Of a DNA stretch of 10,854 bases, positions 4,204 through 10,854 are shown in pieces. Source of the stretch: Actinomycetes bacterium (GTDB lineage Bacteria > Actinomycetota > Acidimicrobiia > Acidimicrobiales > RAAP-2); the NCBI GenBank assembly GCA_021849765.1, contig JAJZSM010000028.1, positions 1-10,854 on the forward strand, in the 5' to 3' direction. Positions within the stretch are counted from its first letter, which is position 1. Every line of letters begins with the position of its first letter. Made by a program: the position numbers and the translations under genes. The notes beneath the pieces were generated by a model. That model made no database searches. It was given only the letters and a program-made list of their open reading frames with translations, and was not told where the DNA came from.

Positions 4204-4461
4204 ATGACGATCACCCTGGAAGAACTGCGAGACGTGACCGTGGCCGCGGTCGTCGACGCCCGTGGGACGTCCTGCCCGGGGCCGATCCTGGCCGCGAAGA
4301 AGGGTATTCCTGGCGTCGCCAGTGGTGCGGTCATGGAGGTCATGGCGACGGACTCGGGCACGTTGAAGGACCTGCCGGCCTGGTGCAAGAAGATGGGTCA
4401 CGAGTTCCTCGGCGTCATCGAGGAGCCCGGCTACCTGCGGCTATTCCTGCGCAAGGTCTGA
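4204..4461 (+). CDS. tusA: TusA family sulfur carrier protein
   Basis: This 85-residue protein is a TusA/SirA-fold sulfurtransferase. The active-site region reads VDARGTSCPGPILAAKK at residues 17-33, with C24 in the CPxP motif that carries a persulfide. Further on, ATDSGTLKDLPAWCKKMGHEFLG (48-70) matches the family's second half, and C61 is a second cysteine whose role is not known. In sulfur oxidisers TusA passes sulfane sulfur between rhodanese or DsrE proteins and the DsrAB or sHdr systems in the cytosol; in E. coli it serves tRNA thiolation. Its place as first gene of an operon with dsrE2 and Hdr-like genes favours the energy-metabolism role. The start is set by GAAGGAG five bases upstream. 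The stop lies one base before the next ATG. Confidence 0.93.
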   Translation: MTITLEELRDVTVAAVVDARGTSCPGPILAAKKGIPGVASGAVMEVMATDSGTLKDLPAWCKKMGHEFLGVIEEPGYLRLFLRKV

Positions 4462-4462
4462 C

Positions 4463-4894
4463 ATGGCCGACGCCGACGACGGTGGGCCGAGCGGGCCCCG
4501 GATCCTCGTCTTTTCCACCAACAACATCTCAGACCCCGGTATCGACCTCGCGGGCAGCCGCCACCTCCACTACCCCTCGACGGTCTTCACGGTCACGGTC
4601 CCCTGTTCGAGCGCGATCAAGCCGACCTGGATTCTGCACGCTTTCGAGAGCGGCTTCGACGGCGTCTTCATCGGCGCCGACGGTGACGAGTGCGCCTACC
4701 TGGCCGACTGCAACGCTCGGACCGCCCGGATCGCCGCGCGCGCCCAGGGGCTGATGAGCGCAAGCGGCTACGAGCCCCAGCGGGTAATGATGGCGGCCCT
4801 CTGCTCGGTGTGCGCCGAGCCATTCGTGAATCACATGCGCGAGTTCACCGAGAAGATGACCGCCCTCGGGCGCGTCAGCGTGCTCGCTTCCTAA
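4463..4894 (+). CDS. MvhD/FlpD-like iron-sulfur protein with rearranged cysteines
   Basis: This 143-residue protein matches the MvhD (hydrogenase delta subunit) family, the small [2Fe-2S] protein that passes electrons to HdrA in methanogens and forms the C-terminus of QmoB. Visible marks are VPCSS (46-50), ILHAFESGFDGVFIG (57-71), GDECAYL (74-80), N84 with a following R, the YEPQRVMM segment (103-110), and FVNHM...FTEKMTALG. Family members usually have an N-terminal CxxC-type pair and a GC before the GxCHY motif; here these read STNN and GADGDEC. C48 and C77 are kept, while C83 and a C-x2-C pair (C114, C117) are extra. The cluster may therefore be bound differently or absent. The ATG is one base after the tusA stop and lacks a strong Shine-Dalgarno sequence, so it is probably coupled to tusA. 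The family call is firm, the cofactor uncertain. Confidence 0.75.
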   Translation: MADADDGGPSGPRILVFSTNNISDPGIDLAGSRHLHYPSTVFTVTVPCSSAIKPTWILHAFESGFDGVFIGADGDECAYLADCNARTARIAARAQGLMSASGYEPQRVMMAALCSVCAEPFVNHMREFTEKMTALGRVSVLAS

Positions 4895-4915: not shown

Positions 4916-5398
4916 ATGGCTCAAACCGACAAGAAAACAATCATCCTCTTCAGCGGCGACCTGGACAAAGTGCTCGCCGCCTTCGTGATCGCCAACGGCG
5001 CTGCCGCCATGGGCGACGACGTGACGATGTTCTTCACCTTCTGGGGCCTCAACGCGCTGCGCCGCGACCACAAGCCGGCCACCCCCGGCAAGACGCCACT
5101 ACAGCGGATGTTCGCGGCGATGATGCCGCGTGGCCCCGAGAAGCTCACGATGTCCCACATGAACTTCGCCGGTGCCGGTCCCGTGCTCATGAAGCGCATG
5201 ATGCGCGAGAACCACGTGCTGTCCATCGACGAGATGATTGCCACCGCGAAGGAGCAGGACATCAAGATGATCGCCTGCACCATGTCAATGGACGTCATGG
5301 GACTGCGAGCCGATGAACTGATCGACGGCCTCGAGTTCGCCGGTGTCGCCACCTATCTCGGCGAAGCCGACGAGGCCAACGTCAACCTGTTCATCTAG
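4916..5398 (+). CDS. dsrE2: DsrE2-type sulfur carrier (DsrE/DsrF-like)
   Basis: This 160-residue protein belongs to the DsrE2 family. The N-terminus IILFSGDLDKVLAAFVIANG (9-28) with AAMGDDVTMFFTFWGLNALR (30-49) is highly typical, as is the C-terminal IACTMSMDVMG (119-129). C121 is the only cysteine and corresponds to the conserved persulfide-carrying residue. DsrE2 proteins are found beside tusA and rhodanese genes in sulfur oxidisers, where they are thought to mobilise sulfane sulfur in the cytosol. The methionine-rich middle (MFAAMMPRG and LMKRMMREN) is common in the family. I see no membrane helix. AAAGGAG about eight bases before the ATG supports the start. It lies 21 bases after the MvhD-like gene and 36 bases before the fused hdrA, so it is likely in the same transcript. 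Confidence 0.92.
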   Translation: MAQTDKKTIILFSGDLDKVLAAFVIANGAAAMGDDVTMFFTFWGLNALRRDHKPATPGKTPLQRMFAAMMPRGPEKLTMSHMNFAGAGPVLMKRMMRENHVLSIDEMIATAKEQDIKMIACTMSMDVMGLRADELIDGLEFAGVATYLGEADEANVNLFI

Positions 5399-5434: not shown

Positions 5435-8185
5435 ATGGACTACGACGCACTGGTCGTGGGGGGCGGAATCGGGGGGATGGAGTCGTCACTGAAACTCGGT
5501 GACATGGGCTATCGCGTCCTGCTCGTCGAGAAGGAGCCGAGCGTGGGCGGGCGGATGATCCTGCTCTCCAAGGTCTTCCCGACCCTCGACTGCGCGAGCT
5601 GCATCTCGGGACCGAAGATGTCCTCGACCATTAACCACCCGAACATCACGACTGCCTCCTCAAGCACGGTGCTCGGCATCCGACGCACCGACGATGGCCG
5701 CTTCCTCGCCACGGTGAAGAAGCGCGCCACCTACGTGGACCCGGCCGCCTGCACCGGCTGCCAGGAGTGTGAGCCCGTCTGCACGGTTGCCGTGCCCGAC
5801 CAGTTCAACGCCGACCTCGTGCCGCGCCGCGCGGCCTACCTCGCGTTCCCCCAGGCCGTCCCGAAGAAGGTGGTCATCGAGCGCGCTGGCACCTCGCCGT
5901 GCACCTACACCTGCCCGGCGGGGATCAAGGCCCACGGCTACGTCGCACTCATCCGAAACGGCCGGTACGAGGAGGCGTTCCAGCTCGTGCTCGAAGCGAC
6001 CCCGCTCGTCGGCACCCTCGGGCGGGCCTGCTACGCGCCCTGTGAGAACGAGTGCACGCGCGACGACCTCGAAGCGCCGATTCCCATCCGTCGCCTCAAG
6101 CGCTTCGTCGCCGACCGGCACTACGACACGATGGACGGCCCCGGCGTCGCGGCGCCCGAGCCCAACGGCAAACACGTCGCGGTCGTCGGATCGGGCCCGG
6201 CTGGACTCACGGCCGCCTGGCAGCTCGCCCGGCTCGGCTACGGCGTCACACTCTACGAGGCCTCACCCGAACCGGGCGGGTTCTTGCGCTACGCCATCCC
6301 GGCCTACCGACTGCCCCAGGACGTGGTCGAGCGCGACATCGCCAACGTCACCGCCCTCGGGGTGACGATTGAGACCGACTCGCCCATCACCGACCTCGAG
6401 GCGTTGCACGACGCGGGCTTTGACGCCGTGCTCGTCGCCACCGGCACGCCACGGTCGACCGCGCTCGCGATCCCCGGCGAAGACCTCGAGCACGTGCGCA
6501 GCGGCCTCGACTTCCTGCGTGACGTGCGCCTCGGGAACCCGCCCGACTGGACCGGCCGGCGCGTCGTCGTCATCGGGGGCGGGAACGTCGCGATGGACGC
6601 CGCGCGTACGGCGAAGCGCCTCGGGGCGCGCCACACGACCGTCGTGTACCGGCGCGGCCCCGATGAGATGCCCGCCATGGCGAGCGAGGTGAACGACGCG
6701 AAACGAGAAGGCGTCGCCTTCACGTTCCTCACCGCACCGGTCGAGGTGCTCGGCGACGAGGAAGACCGGGTGACGGGCCTGCGCTGTCAGCGCATGGAAC
6801 TTGGCGCACCGGACGCGTCGGGTCGACGCCGTCCCGAGCCGGTCGAGGGCAGTGCGTTCGTCATCGAGTGCGACGCGGTGATCGGCGCGATTGGCATGGT
6901 TCCCGACACGGGTGACTTCGCCGAGACCCTCACCGTCACCAGTAACCGTCGCATCACGGTCGACTCGCAGACTCGTCAGAGCGAGGTCGCCTACCTGTTC
7001 GCCGCCGGGGACGTCGTCAACGGCGCCACGGACATCACCCGTGCGGTCGGCGAGGGACGTCGTGCGGCCCACATGATCGACCGCTACCTCACCGGACGAT
7101 CCCTCGACGGGTTCGTCGCCCTCGACGACCGCCTAGCGGTCGTGGACAAGACGTCGGTCCGCGCGCGCCAGCAGCGCTACAGCGCCCACGAACCAACCCC
7201 GGAGACGATGACGCTTACAGACGCCCCGAGCGACTTCAGCGAGGTCGAACGAGTGTTGAGCGAGGTCGAAGCACTGACCGGCGCGGGTGGGTGCCTCGAC
7301 TGCGGGGTCTGCTCGGAGTGCGGCGCGTGTATACGCGCCTGTCCCGCCGACGCGATCGACCTCAACGCCAAGGACCAGGTCATCGAGGTCGACGTCGGCG
7401 CGGTCGTGGTGTCGACTGGCTACAAGCTCTTCGCCGCGGACCTCAAGCCCGAGTACGGCTGGGGTCGATACCCGAACGTCATCACCGGCATGCAGATGGA
7501 CCGATTGCTCGCGCCCACGCGTCCCTTCAACACCGTGTTACGACCGAGCGACGGCAAGGTCCCCGAGCGCATCGCCTACGTCTCGTGCACGGGTTCGCGC
7601 GACCGGACCGTCGACAACCCCCTCTGCTCCAAGTTGTGCTGTATGTACTCGATTAAGCAGAACCAGCTGATCATGGGCACGTTGCCGCTGGCCGACGTCA
7701 CGATGCACTACATCGACATCCGCGCGGCCGGCAAGCGCTACGACGAGTTCTACGAGCAGTCCCGCGCCATGGGCGCGTCCTACATCAAGGGGCGCGTCTC
7801 CACGATCACCGAGAAGGACAACGGCGACCTCGTGCTGCGCTACGAGGACATCGAGAACGGCGGAGCGATCGTCGAGGCGCAGTACGACCTCGTCGTGCTC
7901 GCCGTCGGGGTCCAGCCCAATCGCGAGGTCGAGACCCTCTTCACTGACGAGCACCTCGACCTCAACGAGTACTACTACGTCGACGAGCCCGACGACGACC
8001 TCGACCCGGGCCGCACGAACATCCCGGGGGTCTTCGTCGCCGGGGCGGCGGCGGGCGCGAAGGACATCGTCGACTCGATCACCCACGCCGGGGCGGCCGT
8101 CTCCCAGGTCGCCGCCTACCTCGAAGGTCGTCGTGCGGGCGACCGGATCGACCAGGAACTAGCCACGATGGAGCTGTCACGATGA
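5435..8185 (+). CDS. hdrA: HdrA-like flavoprotein with inserted GltD/NfnB-like NAD(P)H dehydrogenase module (QmoA-like)
   Basis: This 916-residue protein is an HdrA split by a second oxidoreductase. Residues 5-40 form the HdrA FAD fold (VVGGGIGGMESS, then SVGGRM), followed by the C53-x2-C56 pair and a ferredoxin motif C106-x2-C109-x2-C112-x3-C116. After FPQAVPKKVVIE a GltD/NfnB-like module begins: cysteines C156, C160, C199, C203 and C207, an FAD site VVGSGPAGL (250-258), an NADPH site VIGGGNVAMDAART (379-392) followed by YRRGPDEMPA (405-414), and FAAGDV (522-527). HdrA resumes near 565 with a ladder C620-C623-C626-C629-C632-C636, CTGSRD at 718 and CSKLCC at 731-736, DIRAAGKRYDEFYEQ, and a closing FAD motif GVFVAGAAAGAKDIVDSI. 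It lacks the N-terminal CHCGxN domain of full HdrA. All cofactor residues look intact. It probably links NAD(P)H to the Hdr/Qmo complex, possibly by flavin-based bifurcation or its reverse. The gene overlaps the next by 4 bases. Confidence 0.88.
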   Translation: MDYDALVVGGGIGGMESSLKLGDMGYRVLLVEKEPSVGGRMILLSKVFPTLDCASCISGPKMSSTINHPNITTASSSTVLGIRRTDDGRFLATVKKRATYVDPAACTGCQECEPVCTVAVPDQFNADLVPRRAAYLAFPQAVPKKVVIERAGTSPCTYTCPAGIKAHGYVALIRNGRYEEAFQLVLEATPLVGTLGRACYAPCENECTRDDLEAPIPIRRLKRFVADRHYDTMDGPGVAAPEPNGKHVAVVGSGPAGLTAAWQLARLGYGVTLYEASPEPGGFLRYAIPAYRLPQDVVERDIANVTALGVTIETDSPITDLEALHDAGFDAVLVATGTPRSTALAIPGEDLEHVRSGLDFLRDVRLGNPPDWTGRRVVVIGGGNVAMDAARTAKRLGARHTTVVYRRGPDEMPAMASEVNDAKREGVAFTFLTAPVEVLGDEEDRVTGLRCQRMELGAPDASGRRRPEPVEGSAFVIECDAVIGAIGMVPDTGDFAETLTVTSNRRITVDSQTRQSEVAYLFAAGDVVNGATDITRAVGEGRRAAHMIDRYLTGRSLDGFVALDDRLAVVDKTSVRARQQRYSAHEPTPETMTLTDAPSDFSEVERVLSEVEALTGAGGCLDCGVCSECGACIRACPADAIDLNAKDQVIEVDVGAVVVSTGYKLFAADLKPEYGWGRYPNVITGMQMDRLLAPTRPFNTVLRPSDGKVPERIAYVSCTGSRDRTVDNPLCSKLCCMYSIKQNQLIMGTLPLADVTMHYIDIRAAGKRYDEFYEQSRAMGASYIKGRVSTITEKDNGDLVLRYEDIENGGAIVEAQYDLVVLAVGVQPNREVETLFTDEHLDLNEYYYVDEPDDDLDPGRTNIPGVFVAGAAAGAKDIVDSITHAGAAVSQVAAYLEGRRAGDRIDQELATMELSR

Positions 8186-9906
8186 GCGAACGACGGATCG
8201 GTGTCTACATCTGCCACTGCGGTGGCAACATCTCGGACTACGTCGACGTGGCGGCGGTGCGCGACGCGGTAGCGGACCTGCCCGACGTCGTGCACGCCGA
8301 GACCTCGCTCTTCGCGTGCTCCGACGGCACCCAGCAGGACATGATCAAGATGATCAGGGAGCAGAACCTCGACGGACTCGTGGTCGCCTCGTGCTCGCCC
8401 AAACTGCACCTGTTCACTTTTCGCGGCGTGTCGCGGCGTGCGGGCCTCAACCCGTTCGAGTACACCCAGGCCAATATCCGCGAGCAGTGCTCGTGGGCCC
8501 ACACCGACGACCGCGACGGTGCCACGTTAAAGGCCATCGGACTGGTGAAGGGCGCCATCGCCAAGACCCGTGAGTCGAGCGCGCTCGAGCCCATGGCCGT
8601 CCAGACCACGCCGGCGTCGCTGGTGGTCGGCGCGGGCATCGCCGGCCTACGCGCCGCGATCGGACTCGCTGACCTCGGTCTGCGGGTCTACCTCCTCGAG
8701 CAGTCGGCCACCGTCGGCGGCTGGGTCGGCCAATTCGGCCCGACGTTTCCCAACGACCGCGACGGGCGGGCGATGGTGGCCGACCTGCTCGAGCAACTTG
8801 GTTCGCGCCCGACGATAACGCTGCTCACCGACGCCGAGCTGACGGCCAAGTCCGGGAGCTTCGGCAACTACGAGGTGACGATCACCGTCCACGGCGAGCC
8901 CGAGTCCACGGTGCTCGCCACCGTGGGTTCAATCATCATCGCGACCGGGTTCGACACCTACGAGCCCGCGATTGGCGAGTACGGCTACGGGATCGACGGC
9001 GTCGTCACCCTCGCGCAGTTCAAGGCGCTCGTCGAGTCCTCGCCCGACGGCTTGCGATTCGCCGACCGGCCCGTTCGCACGGTCACCTACGTCTACTGCG
9101 TCGGCAACCGCCAGCCGGGTGGCAACGAGTACTGCTCCAAATTCTGTTGCTCGGCGACCGTGCACGCCTCGCTCGAGGTTGCCGCGCTCGACCCCTCGAT
9201 CCACCAGTACCACCTCTACCGCGACATCCGCACCTACGGCAAGTACGAGCTGCTCTACGAGCAGTCGCGCAAGCGTGGCTCGGTCTTCATGAAGTTCCCC
9301 GACGAGGTCCCGCCCCGCGTCGCGCGAACCGACGACGGGCGACTCGCCGTCACGACGCGCGACACCCTGTCGGGCAACGTCGACGTGACGATCCCCACCG
9401 ACCTCGTCGTGCTCGTGACCGGCATGGTGCCGCGCAAGAACACTGATCTCACCACGATGCTCCACCTGCCCGTCGGCGACGACGGCTTCTTCAACGAGAT
9501 CCACCCCAAGCTGCGCCCCGTCGAGACGGTCGTCGACGGCGTCATGATCGCCGGTACCTGCCAGGGACCCAAGACGATCAGTGAGAGTGTCGCGTCGGGC
9601 CTCGCGGCGGTCGCCCAGAGTGGCGCCATGCTGATGAAGGGCGTCGCCGAGCTCGATCCGCTCGTCGCCGTCGTTGCCGAGGCGGCCTGCGCCTGGTGTG
9701 GCGAGTGCCAGCAGGTCTGCCCCTACGAGGCGATCACCGCGGTCAGCGTGGACGGCCGCGAGGTCGCGACCATCGACGCCGCGGTGTGCAAAGGCTGTGG
9801 CGGCTGCACGTCGTACTGCCCGAACAACGCCATCGACCTACTGGGCGCGACCGACGCCCAGATGCGTGCCCTGATCGAGAACCTAGTGGAGGTGACCGTC
9901 GCGTGA
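8182..9906 (+). CDS. hdrA: HdrA-like / QmoB-type iron-sulfur flavoprotein
   Basis: This 574-residue protein is a second HdrA. Its N-terminal domain has CHCGGN (C11, C13), FACSDGTQ (C46), ASCSPKLH (C71) and NIREQCSW (C103), typical of full-length HdrA and QmoB. The FAD site is VVGAGIAGL (148-156) with ATVGGW. The middle has YCVGNR (C306), YCSKFCC (C318, C322, C323) and YRDIRTYGKYE. Two ferredoxin clusters follow at C503-C506-C509-C513 and C536-C539-C542-C546. The CxxC pair that other HdrAs have after the FAD loop is replaced by FPNDRDGRA. QmoB proteins normally end in an MvhD domain; this one stops before it, and a separate MvhD-like gene lies at 4463. It is predicted to be cytosolic and to pass electrons between the fused HdrA and the membrane subunit. 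Its ATG overlaps the upstream stop (ATGA) and its TGA overlaps the next GTG. Confidence 0.88.
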   Translation: MSERRIGVYICHCGGNISDYVDVAAVRDAVADLPDVVHAETSLFACSDGTQQDMIKMIREQNLDGLVVASCSPKLHLFTFRGVSRRAGLNPFEYTQANIREQCSWAHTDDRDGATLKAIGLVKGAIAKTRESSALEPMAVQTTPASLVVGAGIAGLRAAIGLADLGLRVYLLEQSATVGGWVGQFGPTFPNDRDGRAMVADLLEQLGSRPTITLLTDAELTAKSGSFGNYEVTITVHGEPESTVLATVGSIIIATGFDTYEPAIGEYGYGIDGVVTLAQFKALVESSPDGLRFADRPVRTVTYVYCVGNRQPGGNEYCSKFCCSATVHASLEVAALDPSIHQYHLYRDIRTYGKYELLYEQSRKRGSVFMKFPDEVPPRVARTDDGRLAVTTRDTLSGNVDVTIPTDLVVLVTGMVPRKNTDLTTMLHLPVGDDGFFNEIHPKLRPVETVVDGVMIAGTCQGPKTISESVASGLAAVAQSGAMLMKGVAELDPLVAVVAEAACAWCGECQQVCPYEAITAVSVDGREVATIDAAVCKGCGGCTSYCPNNAIDLLGATDAQMRALIENLVEVTVA

Positions 9907-10151
9907 CCAGCACACTGAACCGAGACGTCCGTGAGGTGATCCGCGAGGAGCCACTCATGCACCGACCAATCCTTGCGGTGCTCGCCGATGGGCCCCGCAC
10001 CGTGCCCGAGATCGCCGACGCTCTCGGGCGACCGAGCGAGGAGGTCATGTACTGGGTCATGGGCATGCGCCGCTACGCCAAGCTCGTCGAGCTGCGTGAA
10101 CCGACCGACGACGGATTCTTCCAGTACGCCGCCCTCGAGGTCCGCTCGTGA
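9903..10151 (+). CDS. Small winged-helix-like protein inside the Hdr/Qmo operon
   Basis: This 82-residue protein does not match a family I can name. The middle, PILAVLADGPRTVPEIADALGRPSEEVMYWVMGMRRY (about residues 22-58), reads as a winged helix-turn-helix: a first helix, a TVPEIADAL second helix, a turn at GRP, and a recognition-type helix. It is followed by a two-stranded wing LVELREPTDDGFFQYAAL. It has no cysteine, so it is not an electron carrier. The start is set by GGAGGTGA at 9888-9895, seven bases before the GTG at 9903, which overlaps the hdrA stop. An ATG at 9957 preceded by GAGGAG is an alternative that would remove 18 residues. It overlaps the next gene by 4 bases. It may be an operon regulator or a structural partner using the same fold. 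Confidence 0.7.
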   Translation: MTSTLNRDVREVIREEPLMHRPILAVLADGPRTVPEIADALGRPSEEVMYWVMGMRRYAKLVELREPTDDGFFQYAALEVRS

Positions 10152-10854
10152 GCGCCGTCATCGAGGTCACCACGGTCGACCCCGGGCTGCTCGCCGACAT
10201 CCAGCGTTTCGGGGCCGCTGACGTCTCGGCCTGCTTCAGTTGCGGCAACTGCAGCGCCATCTGCCCGCTCTCGAACAACGACGGCACGTTCCCCCGGCGC
10301 ATGATCCGCTACGGGCAGGTCGGGCTGCGCGATGAGCTCCTCGGGAGTAAGGAGCTCTGGGCCTGTTACCACTGCGGACTCTGCAGCGAGAGCTGCCCGC
10401 AGCGAGCCGATCCCGGCGAGTACATGGCCGTCGCGCGGCGCTACGCCATCGCGAGCTACGACCGCACCGGGATCGCGCGCGCCCTCTACGTCCACCCGGC
10501 CGTGGGCTCGGGCGTGCTCGTCGCGCTCGCGGCGGCCTTCGCGACGTTCTTCACGCTCATGAGCGGCGCCGAGCCGCGCCAGTCGCTACGGCTCTTCTCG
10601 TTCCTGCCCGACGGCGTCGTGCACTGGACCGGGGTCGCCGTGATGATCGCCGTCGTACTCGTCGCGCTCGCGGGTGTCTCGACCATGGTCCACGGGCTCG
10701 CCCGCCGCGAGGGCGTGCACGGACGCGACCTCGTCGTCGGGATCGCCTCGTGGCGCCGGGCCTGGCGTGGCGCCTGGTCCGCGGTCGCCGTCGAGTCCCT
10801 CGGCCAGAAGCGCTTCCGCGACGACTGCGCCGACGCGGACCCCGACGAGCACTG
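10148..10854 (+). CDS. qmoC: QmoC-like HdrC/membrane subunit fusion (partial at window edge)
   Basis: From a GTG at 10148 this frame runs 235 codons to the window edge. The N-terminal half is HdrC-like with two [4Fe-4S] motifs: C29-x2-C32-x2-C35-x3-C39-P (CFSCGNCSAICP) and C73-x2-C76-x2-C79-x3-C83-P (CYHCGLCSESCP). Two membrane helices follow at about 118-138 and 157-181, separated by a short loop ending FLPDGVVHW. H116, H159 and H182 near the helix ends could be haem ligands. HdrC joined to a membrane part is the QmoC design, which passes electrons to or from menaquinone through haem b. The final visible part, with C226, is soluble; further helices would lie outside the window. Its GTG overlaps the preceding stop (GTGA). 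It would anchor the two HdrA subunits to the membrane. QmoC is favoured over DsrK/HdrD because no CCG domain is seen. Confidence 0.85.
   Translation, partial: MSAVIEVTTVDPGLLADIQRFGAADVSACFSCGNCSAICPLSNNDGTFPRRMIRYGQVGLRDELLGSKELWACYHCGLCSESCPQRADPGEYMAVARRYAIASYDRTGIARALYVHPAVGSGVLVALAAAFATFFTLMSGAEPRQSLRLFSFLPDGVVHWTGVAVMIAVVLVALAGVSTMVHGLARREGVHGRDLVVGIASWRRAWRGAWSAVAVESLGQKRFRDDCADADPDEH

Follow-up and report, generated by a model that had tools for sequence, protein, structure and literature searches.

The DNA analysed here is a 10,854-nucleotide stretch (the window) covering positions 1 to 10,854 of contig JAJZSM010000028.1, from an Actinomycetes bacterium. It carries, on the forward strand, an operon encoding a TusA sulfur carrier, an FlpD/MvhD protein, a DsrE2-type sulfurtransferase, a fusion protein, an HdrA-like partner (HdrA2), a winged-helix protein and the start of a QmoC-like subunit (Table 1). 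The fusion is an HdrA-type flavoprotein interrupted by a GltD/StnC-like module that holds sites for flavin adenine dinucleotide (FAD), NAD(P) and iron-sulfur (Fe-S) clusters. In a preliminary description made from the sequence alone, the gene at 4463-4894 had been taken as DsrE-type; it encodes FlpD/MvhD (PF02662), and DsrE2 is encoded at 4916-5398.

Table 1. Features of the operon and of the fusion protein in the window.
Feature	Position	Strand	Details
TusA sulfur carrier	4204..4461	+	PF01206; Cys24 within CPGP
FlpD/MvhD [2Fe-2S]-type electron-entry protein	4463..4894	+	PF02662
DsrE2-type sulfurtransferase	4916..5398	+	PF13686; Cys121
Fusion: HdrA with GltD/StnC-like insert, 916 residues	5435..8185	+	single open frame
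HdrA part 1, residues 1-148	5435..5878	+	FAD fold; C53/C56; first ferredoxin motif C106/C109/C112/C116
Insert, residues 149-624	5879..7306	+	GltD/StnC-like
Insert Fe-S helical domain, residues 153-230	5891..6124	+	PF14691; C156, C160, C199, C203, C207, K222
K222, equivalent of StnC K170 and NfnB E117	6098..6100	+	from alignments; Lys in 80/80 loci
Insert FAD Rossmann motif GSGPAG, residues 252-257	6188..6205	+	
R292, equivalent of NfnB R187 and StnC R239	6308..6310	+	80/80 loci
NAD(P) Rossmann motif GGGNVA, residues 381-386	6575..6592	+	
YRR, residues 405-407, NADPH phosphate recognition	6647..6655	+	YRR in 61/80 loci
CLDC (C620, C623), after motif DFSEVERVLSEVEALTGAGGCLDCG	7292..7303	+	two further insert-borne ligands; 80/80 loci
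HdrA part 2, residues 625-916 and stop	7307..8185	+	second ferredoxin motif C626-C636; FAD domain; C718/C731/C735/C736; K741
HdrA2 partner	8182..9906	+	N-terminal Fe-S domain and C-terminal 2x[4Fe-4S]; Ala at Cys197 position, His at K409 position
Winged-helix protein, 82 residues	9903..10151	+	conserved; found in 69/80 loci
QmoC-like subunit	10148..10852	+	HdrC 2x[4Fe-4S] and membrane cytochrome part; cut by window end

GltD-inserted HdrA is a real protein family, widespread in bacteria. A tblastn search confirmed 524 relatives, of which the best 80 were kept as loci; all counts out of 80 refer to these. They belong to Actinomycetota, Chloroflexota, Bacillota and other groups, and each has the insert, with at least 383 of 411 positions aligned. 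Relatives were found in databases under generic labels, as the preliminary description had expected. A sequencing or assembly artefact joining two genes is refuted: proteins of equal length and 91-95% identity come from other assemblies (91% in L001), the same architecture of about 900-930 residues recurs in independent assemblies of several phyla, and no point in favour of an artefact was found. In the class of the Desulfofundulus genome G022, 28 of 113 genomes matched the fusion, 24 with frames of 901-1037 residues (one with an internal TGA) and four with frames of 1359-1383 residues; the eight loci fetched from this class have frames of 902-904 residues with 59-61% identity to the window fusion. 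Since Actinotalea lenta, Cellulomonas sp. SG140 and two Desulfofundulus species are among the named strains with relatives, the system is open to testing.

Domain searches of the fusion identified HdrA flanks (5odc) and a GltD-like insert (PF14691, 9n5u_A). With phmmer, residues 4-149 aligned with positions 145-289 of HdrA 5odc (E 1.6e-40) and residues 621-895 with positions 288-564 (E 2.5e-60). Because the first match ends at 289 and the second restarts at 288, the two flanks are contiguous in HdrA, and the GltD domain separates the halves of its inserted ferredoxin domain, as in type III HdrA. The interruption lies near residue 148 as first described; HdrA resumes near 625, not 565. The column of C623 is never Cys in 102 uninterrupted HdrA relatives (I, L or M in 100, V once, R once), which assigns C620 and C623 to the insert and places its end at about 624; C626, C629, C632 and C636 are cysteine in 102/102. 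Part 1 cysteines are present in 76-78 of the 80 loci, the remainder being gaps, and the second ferredoxin motif C626-C636, the part 2 ligands C718, C731, C735 and C736, and K741 are kept in all 80. C56 is the equivalent of HdrA Cys197, and K741 that of K409 at the HdrA FAD, another type III feature. The fusion has neither an N-terminal Fe-S domain nor a C-terminal ferredoxin.

Within the insert, residues 154-555 resemble the GltD-like domain of NfnABC (9n5u_A, E 4.6e-105); matches to NfnB and GltD are weaker. The insert has the two Rossmann motifs, R406-R407 and all five cysteines first listed for it, and a single chain contains two FAD folds and many Fe-S ligands. C156, C160, C199, C203 and C207 align with NfnB C47, C51, C90, C96 and C100. 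In NfnB the distal cluster is bound by C39, C42, C47 and C100 and the proximal one by C51, C90, C96 and E117 (PMC7596348). C620 and C623 lie in a CLxCG motif resembling one aligned in 9bov_A and could stand in for NfnB C39 and C42. The position of E117 is occupied by a lysine, K222, in every locus. StnC K170 is reported as a cluster ligand, and the FAD of the StnC GltD-like domain as non-bifurcating (PMC10482914). NfnB-like bifurcation by the insert flavin, suggested in the preliminary description, was dropped because K222 is as in non-bifurcating StnC. Among the nine window genes scanned with Pfam and NCBIfam models, no NfnA partner was found. If anything bifurcates, the HdrA FAD with its conserved K741 is a more likely site than the insert flavin. 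The NADPH-type site proposed earlier agrees with the YRR motif, which accompanies NADP(H) use in DsrL-2 (PMC7596348). Residues 406-407 are LE in 14 loci, and relatives without YRR probably use NADH.

The operon is conserved with the fusion, and the neighbour survey foreseen in the preliminary description found five partners recurring in 69-75 of the 80 loci. Counted within 7.5 kb of the fusion at a 45-bit threshold, with cut loci as misses, neighbours were TusA (73), FlpD (74), HdrA2 (75), the winged-helix protein (69), QmoC or HdrC (70) and DsrE2 (48). The gene order is TusA-FlpD-(DsrE2)-fusion-HdrA2-winged helix-QmoC, or HdrC and HdrB in the last place. TusA Cys24 is conserved in 73/73, the five Cys of FlpD/MvhD in 73-74/74 and DsrE2 Cys121 in 47/48, with one gap. 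HdrA2 contains the N-terminal Fe-S domain and C-terminal ferredoxin that are absent from the fusion; such complementarity has been read as a sign of HdrA heterodimers (PMC9012536). At the Cys197 position of HdrA2 the window has Ala, and Cys is outside the six commonest letters, which cover 70 of 75 loci. Its K409 position is His in 66 of the 73 loci with a letter, so that the bifurcation lysine is not kept. Modules, conserved ligands, operon and complementary partner are all established by sequence and fold.

The best NCBIfam model for the QmoC-like fragment was qmoC (NF038018), at 103.5 bits for the cut sequence and below the 300-bit cut-off. In the close relatives L003 and L005, QmoC has 392 residues and closes the operon, the next called gene being on the opposite strand. 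Hydropathy predicts six transmembrane helices in L003, and each of four His residues is kept in 47-48 of the 48 long sequences. A membrane subunit of this kind fits the menaquinone-type acceptor proposed earlier, and the operon provides two HdrA-like subunits with an HdrC-cytochrome b subunit, as in QmoABC. The 82-residue protein between HdrA2 and QmoC/HdrC gave a confident AlphaFold2 (AF2) winged-helix model (pLDDT 90.6). The matches of a structural search were to generic winged-helix proteins and none reached E <= 0.001; a DsrD-like identity was rejected on this result, in a comparison that DsrD itself lay outside. The protein may be an effector tied to this operon and not a general regulator.

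A short HdrC followed by HdrB replaces QmoC in 19 loci (including L045, L052, L053 and L061). Loci with and without YRR numbered 45 and 3 with transmembrane QmoC, and 6 and 13 with HdrC; the other 13 were cut or without assignment. A link between YRR and QmoC was rejected: each trait changes three times on the tree and independent pairs lend it no support, so the co-occurrence was treated as joint inheritance. The HdrC-HdrB pair, of a disulfide-reducing type, favours another reading of the same complex, in which NADPH, with or without menaquinol, would reduce persulfide carried by TusA or DsrE2 and so form sulfide, in sulfane-sulfur respiration or detoxification. Flanking genes point the same way. 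Among 77 proteins chosen from 265 flanking ones, the leading Pfam families were DsrE (9), CsoR-type (5), rhodanese (5) and ArsR (5), and four matched the BigR model; regulators and rhodaneses of this sort are typical of persulfide responses. However, only one CCG domain is present in HdrB of L053, and each of the 19 loci matched the CCG motif once; in loci with transmembrane QmoC no HdrB homologue was found except a distant match of 28% identity in L075. We regard the reducing direction as possible but rather doubtful.

The QmoA/QmoB/QmoC-like subunit set also raises the question of whether the operon is a Qmo or Dsr component feeding AprAB or DsrAB, and the family does occur in sulfate reducers (Desulfofundulus). 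DsrA and AprA were searched for in 40 genomes chosen from the 80 loci, many of them metagenome-assembled and possibly incomplete. AprA, the protein served by QmoABC, and DsrA, the partner of DsrL, were over cut-off in the same six; neither was in the other 34, which include the window's relatives L001 and L004. None of the control genomes was over cut-off for either protein. A role in sulfate reduction was rejected on these counts, and a feeder of AprAB or DsrAB appears very improbable.

We propose instead that a Qmo-like membrane complex ties together protein-bound sulfur, menaquinone and NADPH, with NADPH in the place of ferredoxin, and give this reading a probability of about 0.5. We infer from the sequences how cluster ligands are shared, the order of the wiring, the sulfur substrate, the direction and the bifurcation. 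The fusion would be the NADPH-bearing subunit of a membrane-attached HdrA heterodimer, in which NADPH would meet the FAD of the inserted module. Single electrons would run from this FAD to a proximal cluster (C160, C199, C203, K222), a distal cluster (C156, C207, C620, C623), the two clusters of the HdrA ferredoxin domain and the HdrA FAD at K741. The ferredoxin domain, ordinarily the docking site of ferredoxin, would thereby take NADPH electrons. The N-terminal cluster domain of HdrA2, completed by C56 of the fusion, would lead to QmoC and menaquinone, its C-terminal ferredoxin would lead to FlpD, and TusA and DsrE2 would deliver or take away sulfane sulfur. Of the three ports of the complex, NADPH would occupy the one that ferredoxin uses in ordinary HdrA, menaquinone would be reached by way of HdrA2/QmoC, and FlpD with TusA/DsrE2 would serve mid-potential sulfur. 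In the most likely net reaction, a donor at the thiol or sulfide level would be oxidised through FlpD, and the HdrA FAD would split the electrons downhill to menaquinone and uphill to NADP+. The potentials are about -0.32 V for NADP+, -0.27 V for sulfur/sulfide and -0.08 V for menaquinone, and splitting sulfide-level electrons between NADP+ and menaquinone would therefore be feasible.

Without bifurcation, the complex would be a plain NADPH:menaquinone oxidoreductase, with TusA and DsrE2 serving another role. The insert flavin of the non-bifurcating StnC type and the lack of the bifurcation lysine in HdrA2 are consistent with this, but the invariance of K741 (80/80) and the presence of TusA with its Cys beside the fusion argue against it, and we consider it unlikely.

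Several observations weigh against the sulfur-menaquinone-NADPH complex itself. YRR is absent from 19 of the 80 loci, and DsrE2 was found in only 48, partly as weak matches. Most genes flanking the operon are not conserved and few of them recur, and no clear sulfur-oxidising or sulfur-reducing catalytic centre was seen among the genes of QmoC-type operons. HdrA E356, which holds K409, aligns with Asp689, nearly invariant in our alignment A1; the role of E356 is stated for type I HdrA and not as a mark of type III (PMC12054007). The AF2 model has low confidence at residues 37-52, 121-123 and 129-147, at the junction of insert and ferredoxin domain. The open-licence literature searched contained no report of activity for any GltD-inserted HdrA. 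Finally, in 12 of 120 listed matches of the search described next the insert lacks the NAD(P) domain, so NAD(P)H cannot be a requirement of all insert-bearing HdrA proteins.

These reduced forms (690-770 residues) came from a search with the joined HdrA flanks, in which 120 of 7347 matches were listed and candidates were limited to 0.55-1.75 times the query length, so that full-length fusions were out of reach. They are P0121, P0132, P0135, P0138, P0141, P0146, P0147, P0152, P0181, P0183, P0194 and P0203. All have lost the NAD(P)-binding domain, with 0-19 of the 91 positions at 370-460 aligned, and keep every insert and HdrA cluster cysteine that was checked; K222 is kept in six and lost in six. 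P0135 is named Dissulfurimicrobium, a genus of sulfur disproportionators (PMC12998232). An HdrA-core tree with the insert removed comprised 38 full-length fusions, 12 reduced inserts and 41 uninterrupted proteins. Insert presence required one change, the separating branch having weak support (75), and the insert was apparently gained once within the bacterial set treed. The reduced form required three changes, two of them forced by supported branches. Matches in the phylum of G038 (5 of 195 genomes) are not reduced forms, as their open frames have 920-1119 residues.

Two of the four 1359-1383-residue frames in the Desulfofundulus class, both outside the tree, were characterised as single chains of HdrA2 and an insert-bearing HdrA that lacks the NAD(P) domain (1360-1367 residues; L089, 5123-9226 on the reverse strand, and L090, 6007-10089 on the forward strand). 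Near the L090 fusion lie MetV-, MetF- and FlpD-like genes, as well as genes for a CCG protein of TmcB/HmcF type and for a separate NAD-binding protein (PF00175). The existence of the reduced forms and of L090 indicates that the Fe-S part of the insert is separable from the NAD(P) domain, and the use of nucleotide resembles a plug that can be changed. We put forward, tentatively, a widespread bacterial enzyme that would draw NADPH straight from the oxidation of sulfane sulfur or thiols, through flavin-based bifurcation that has menaquinone as acceptor at the high-potential end. Its insert would be an exchangeable nucleotide plug on the HdrA ferredoxin port, apparently gained once, that swapped NADPH- and NADH-type motifs, lost its NAD(P) domain on several occasions and in at least one locus stands beside a separate NAD-binding module. 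If so, sulfur oxidisers would not have to rely on proton-driven reverse electron flow to obtain NADPH. HdrA complexes set the destination of low-potential electrons in anaerobic energy metabolism, and an HdrA passing electrons to NADPH within one chain would illustrate how the connections of bifurcating machines are exchanged. It would also offer an NADPH route to sulfur-using Actinobacteria, Chloroflexi and Bacillota, mostly without detected Dsr or Apr in the genomes tested.

The preliminary description knew of no characterised fusion. We likewise found none with reported biochemistry, but the architecture itself had been published for archaea. HdrA 9-11 of ANME-1 carry an NfnB-like insertion in the ferredoxin domain (PMC9012536, 2022), and this form, in nine archaeal sequences, was later named type III HdrA, without biochemistry (PMC12054007, 2025). 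The latter work inferred two separate insertions, read GXGXXG as NADH and proposed that ferredoxin is shut out by the insert, through which electrons of NAD(P)H reach the FAD; the core mechanism is therefore not original here. These archaeal proteins share with the window fusion the GltD/NfnB domain within the inserted ferredoxin domain and the proposed use of NAD(P)H; for class A9 an origin from A6 is stated, and A6, like the window fusion, has no N- or C-terminal Fe-S domains. As far as the published description allows comparison, the type III proteins are archaeal with GXGXXG and no TusA operon mentioned there, whereas the window fusion is bacterial, with GGGNVA and YRR, in a TusA-FlpD-HdrA2-QmoC operon. 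The open-licence literature searched described no bacterial branch, TusA operon, StnC-type lysine in HdrA, HdrA2 fusion or loss of the NAD(P) domain. The bacterial branch in its conserved TusA operon seems to be new; the architecture is not.

Other known systems share single parts. QmoB resembles FlpD, which is a separate protein in the window operon. QmoABC (including type II, PMC10504309) has the same two HdrA-type flavoproteins and HdrC-cytochrome b subunit; in the window, by contrast, the QmoA-like subunit bears an NADPH module, TusA and DsrE2 are in the operon, and AprA stayed below cut-off in most genomes. The GltD-like domain of StnC/NfnABC (8oh5, 9bov, 9n5u) has the same fold, C-terminal-side CLxCG, proximal-cluster lysine and FAD/NADPH site, but in StnC it is joined to a NuoG-like chain (PMC10482914) and not to HdrA. 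DsrL-2, which also acts in sulfur metabolism, is likewise a GltD-like NAD(P)H unit and has the YRR motif, but it is a stand-alone partner of DsrAB (PMC7596348), whereas the window unit is fused into HdrA and DsrA was mostly below cut-off. The Moorella-type MetVF-HdrABC-MvhD complex (PMC9012536, PMC5736913) combines an HdrA pair with FlpD, to which the L090 neighbourhood corresponds; L090 has its nucleotide-binding gene apart from the insert, and the Moorella-type substrate is methylene-tetrahydrofolate, not sulfur.

Upstream of the operon, positions 1-2200 contain open reading frames that, by eye from their translations, we take to be hisD-like (partial) and hisG-like on the reverse strand, one TrpR-like, and one hisA-like on the forward strand. 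They are followed by a gene for a 182-residue protein without Pfam match (2321-2869) and a pirin gene (PF02678, 2980-3924), both of which recur in the close relatives L001 and L002.

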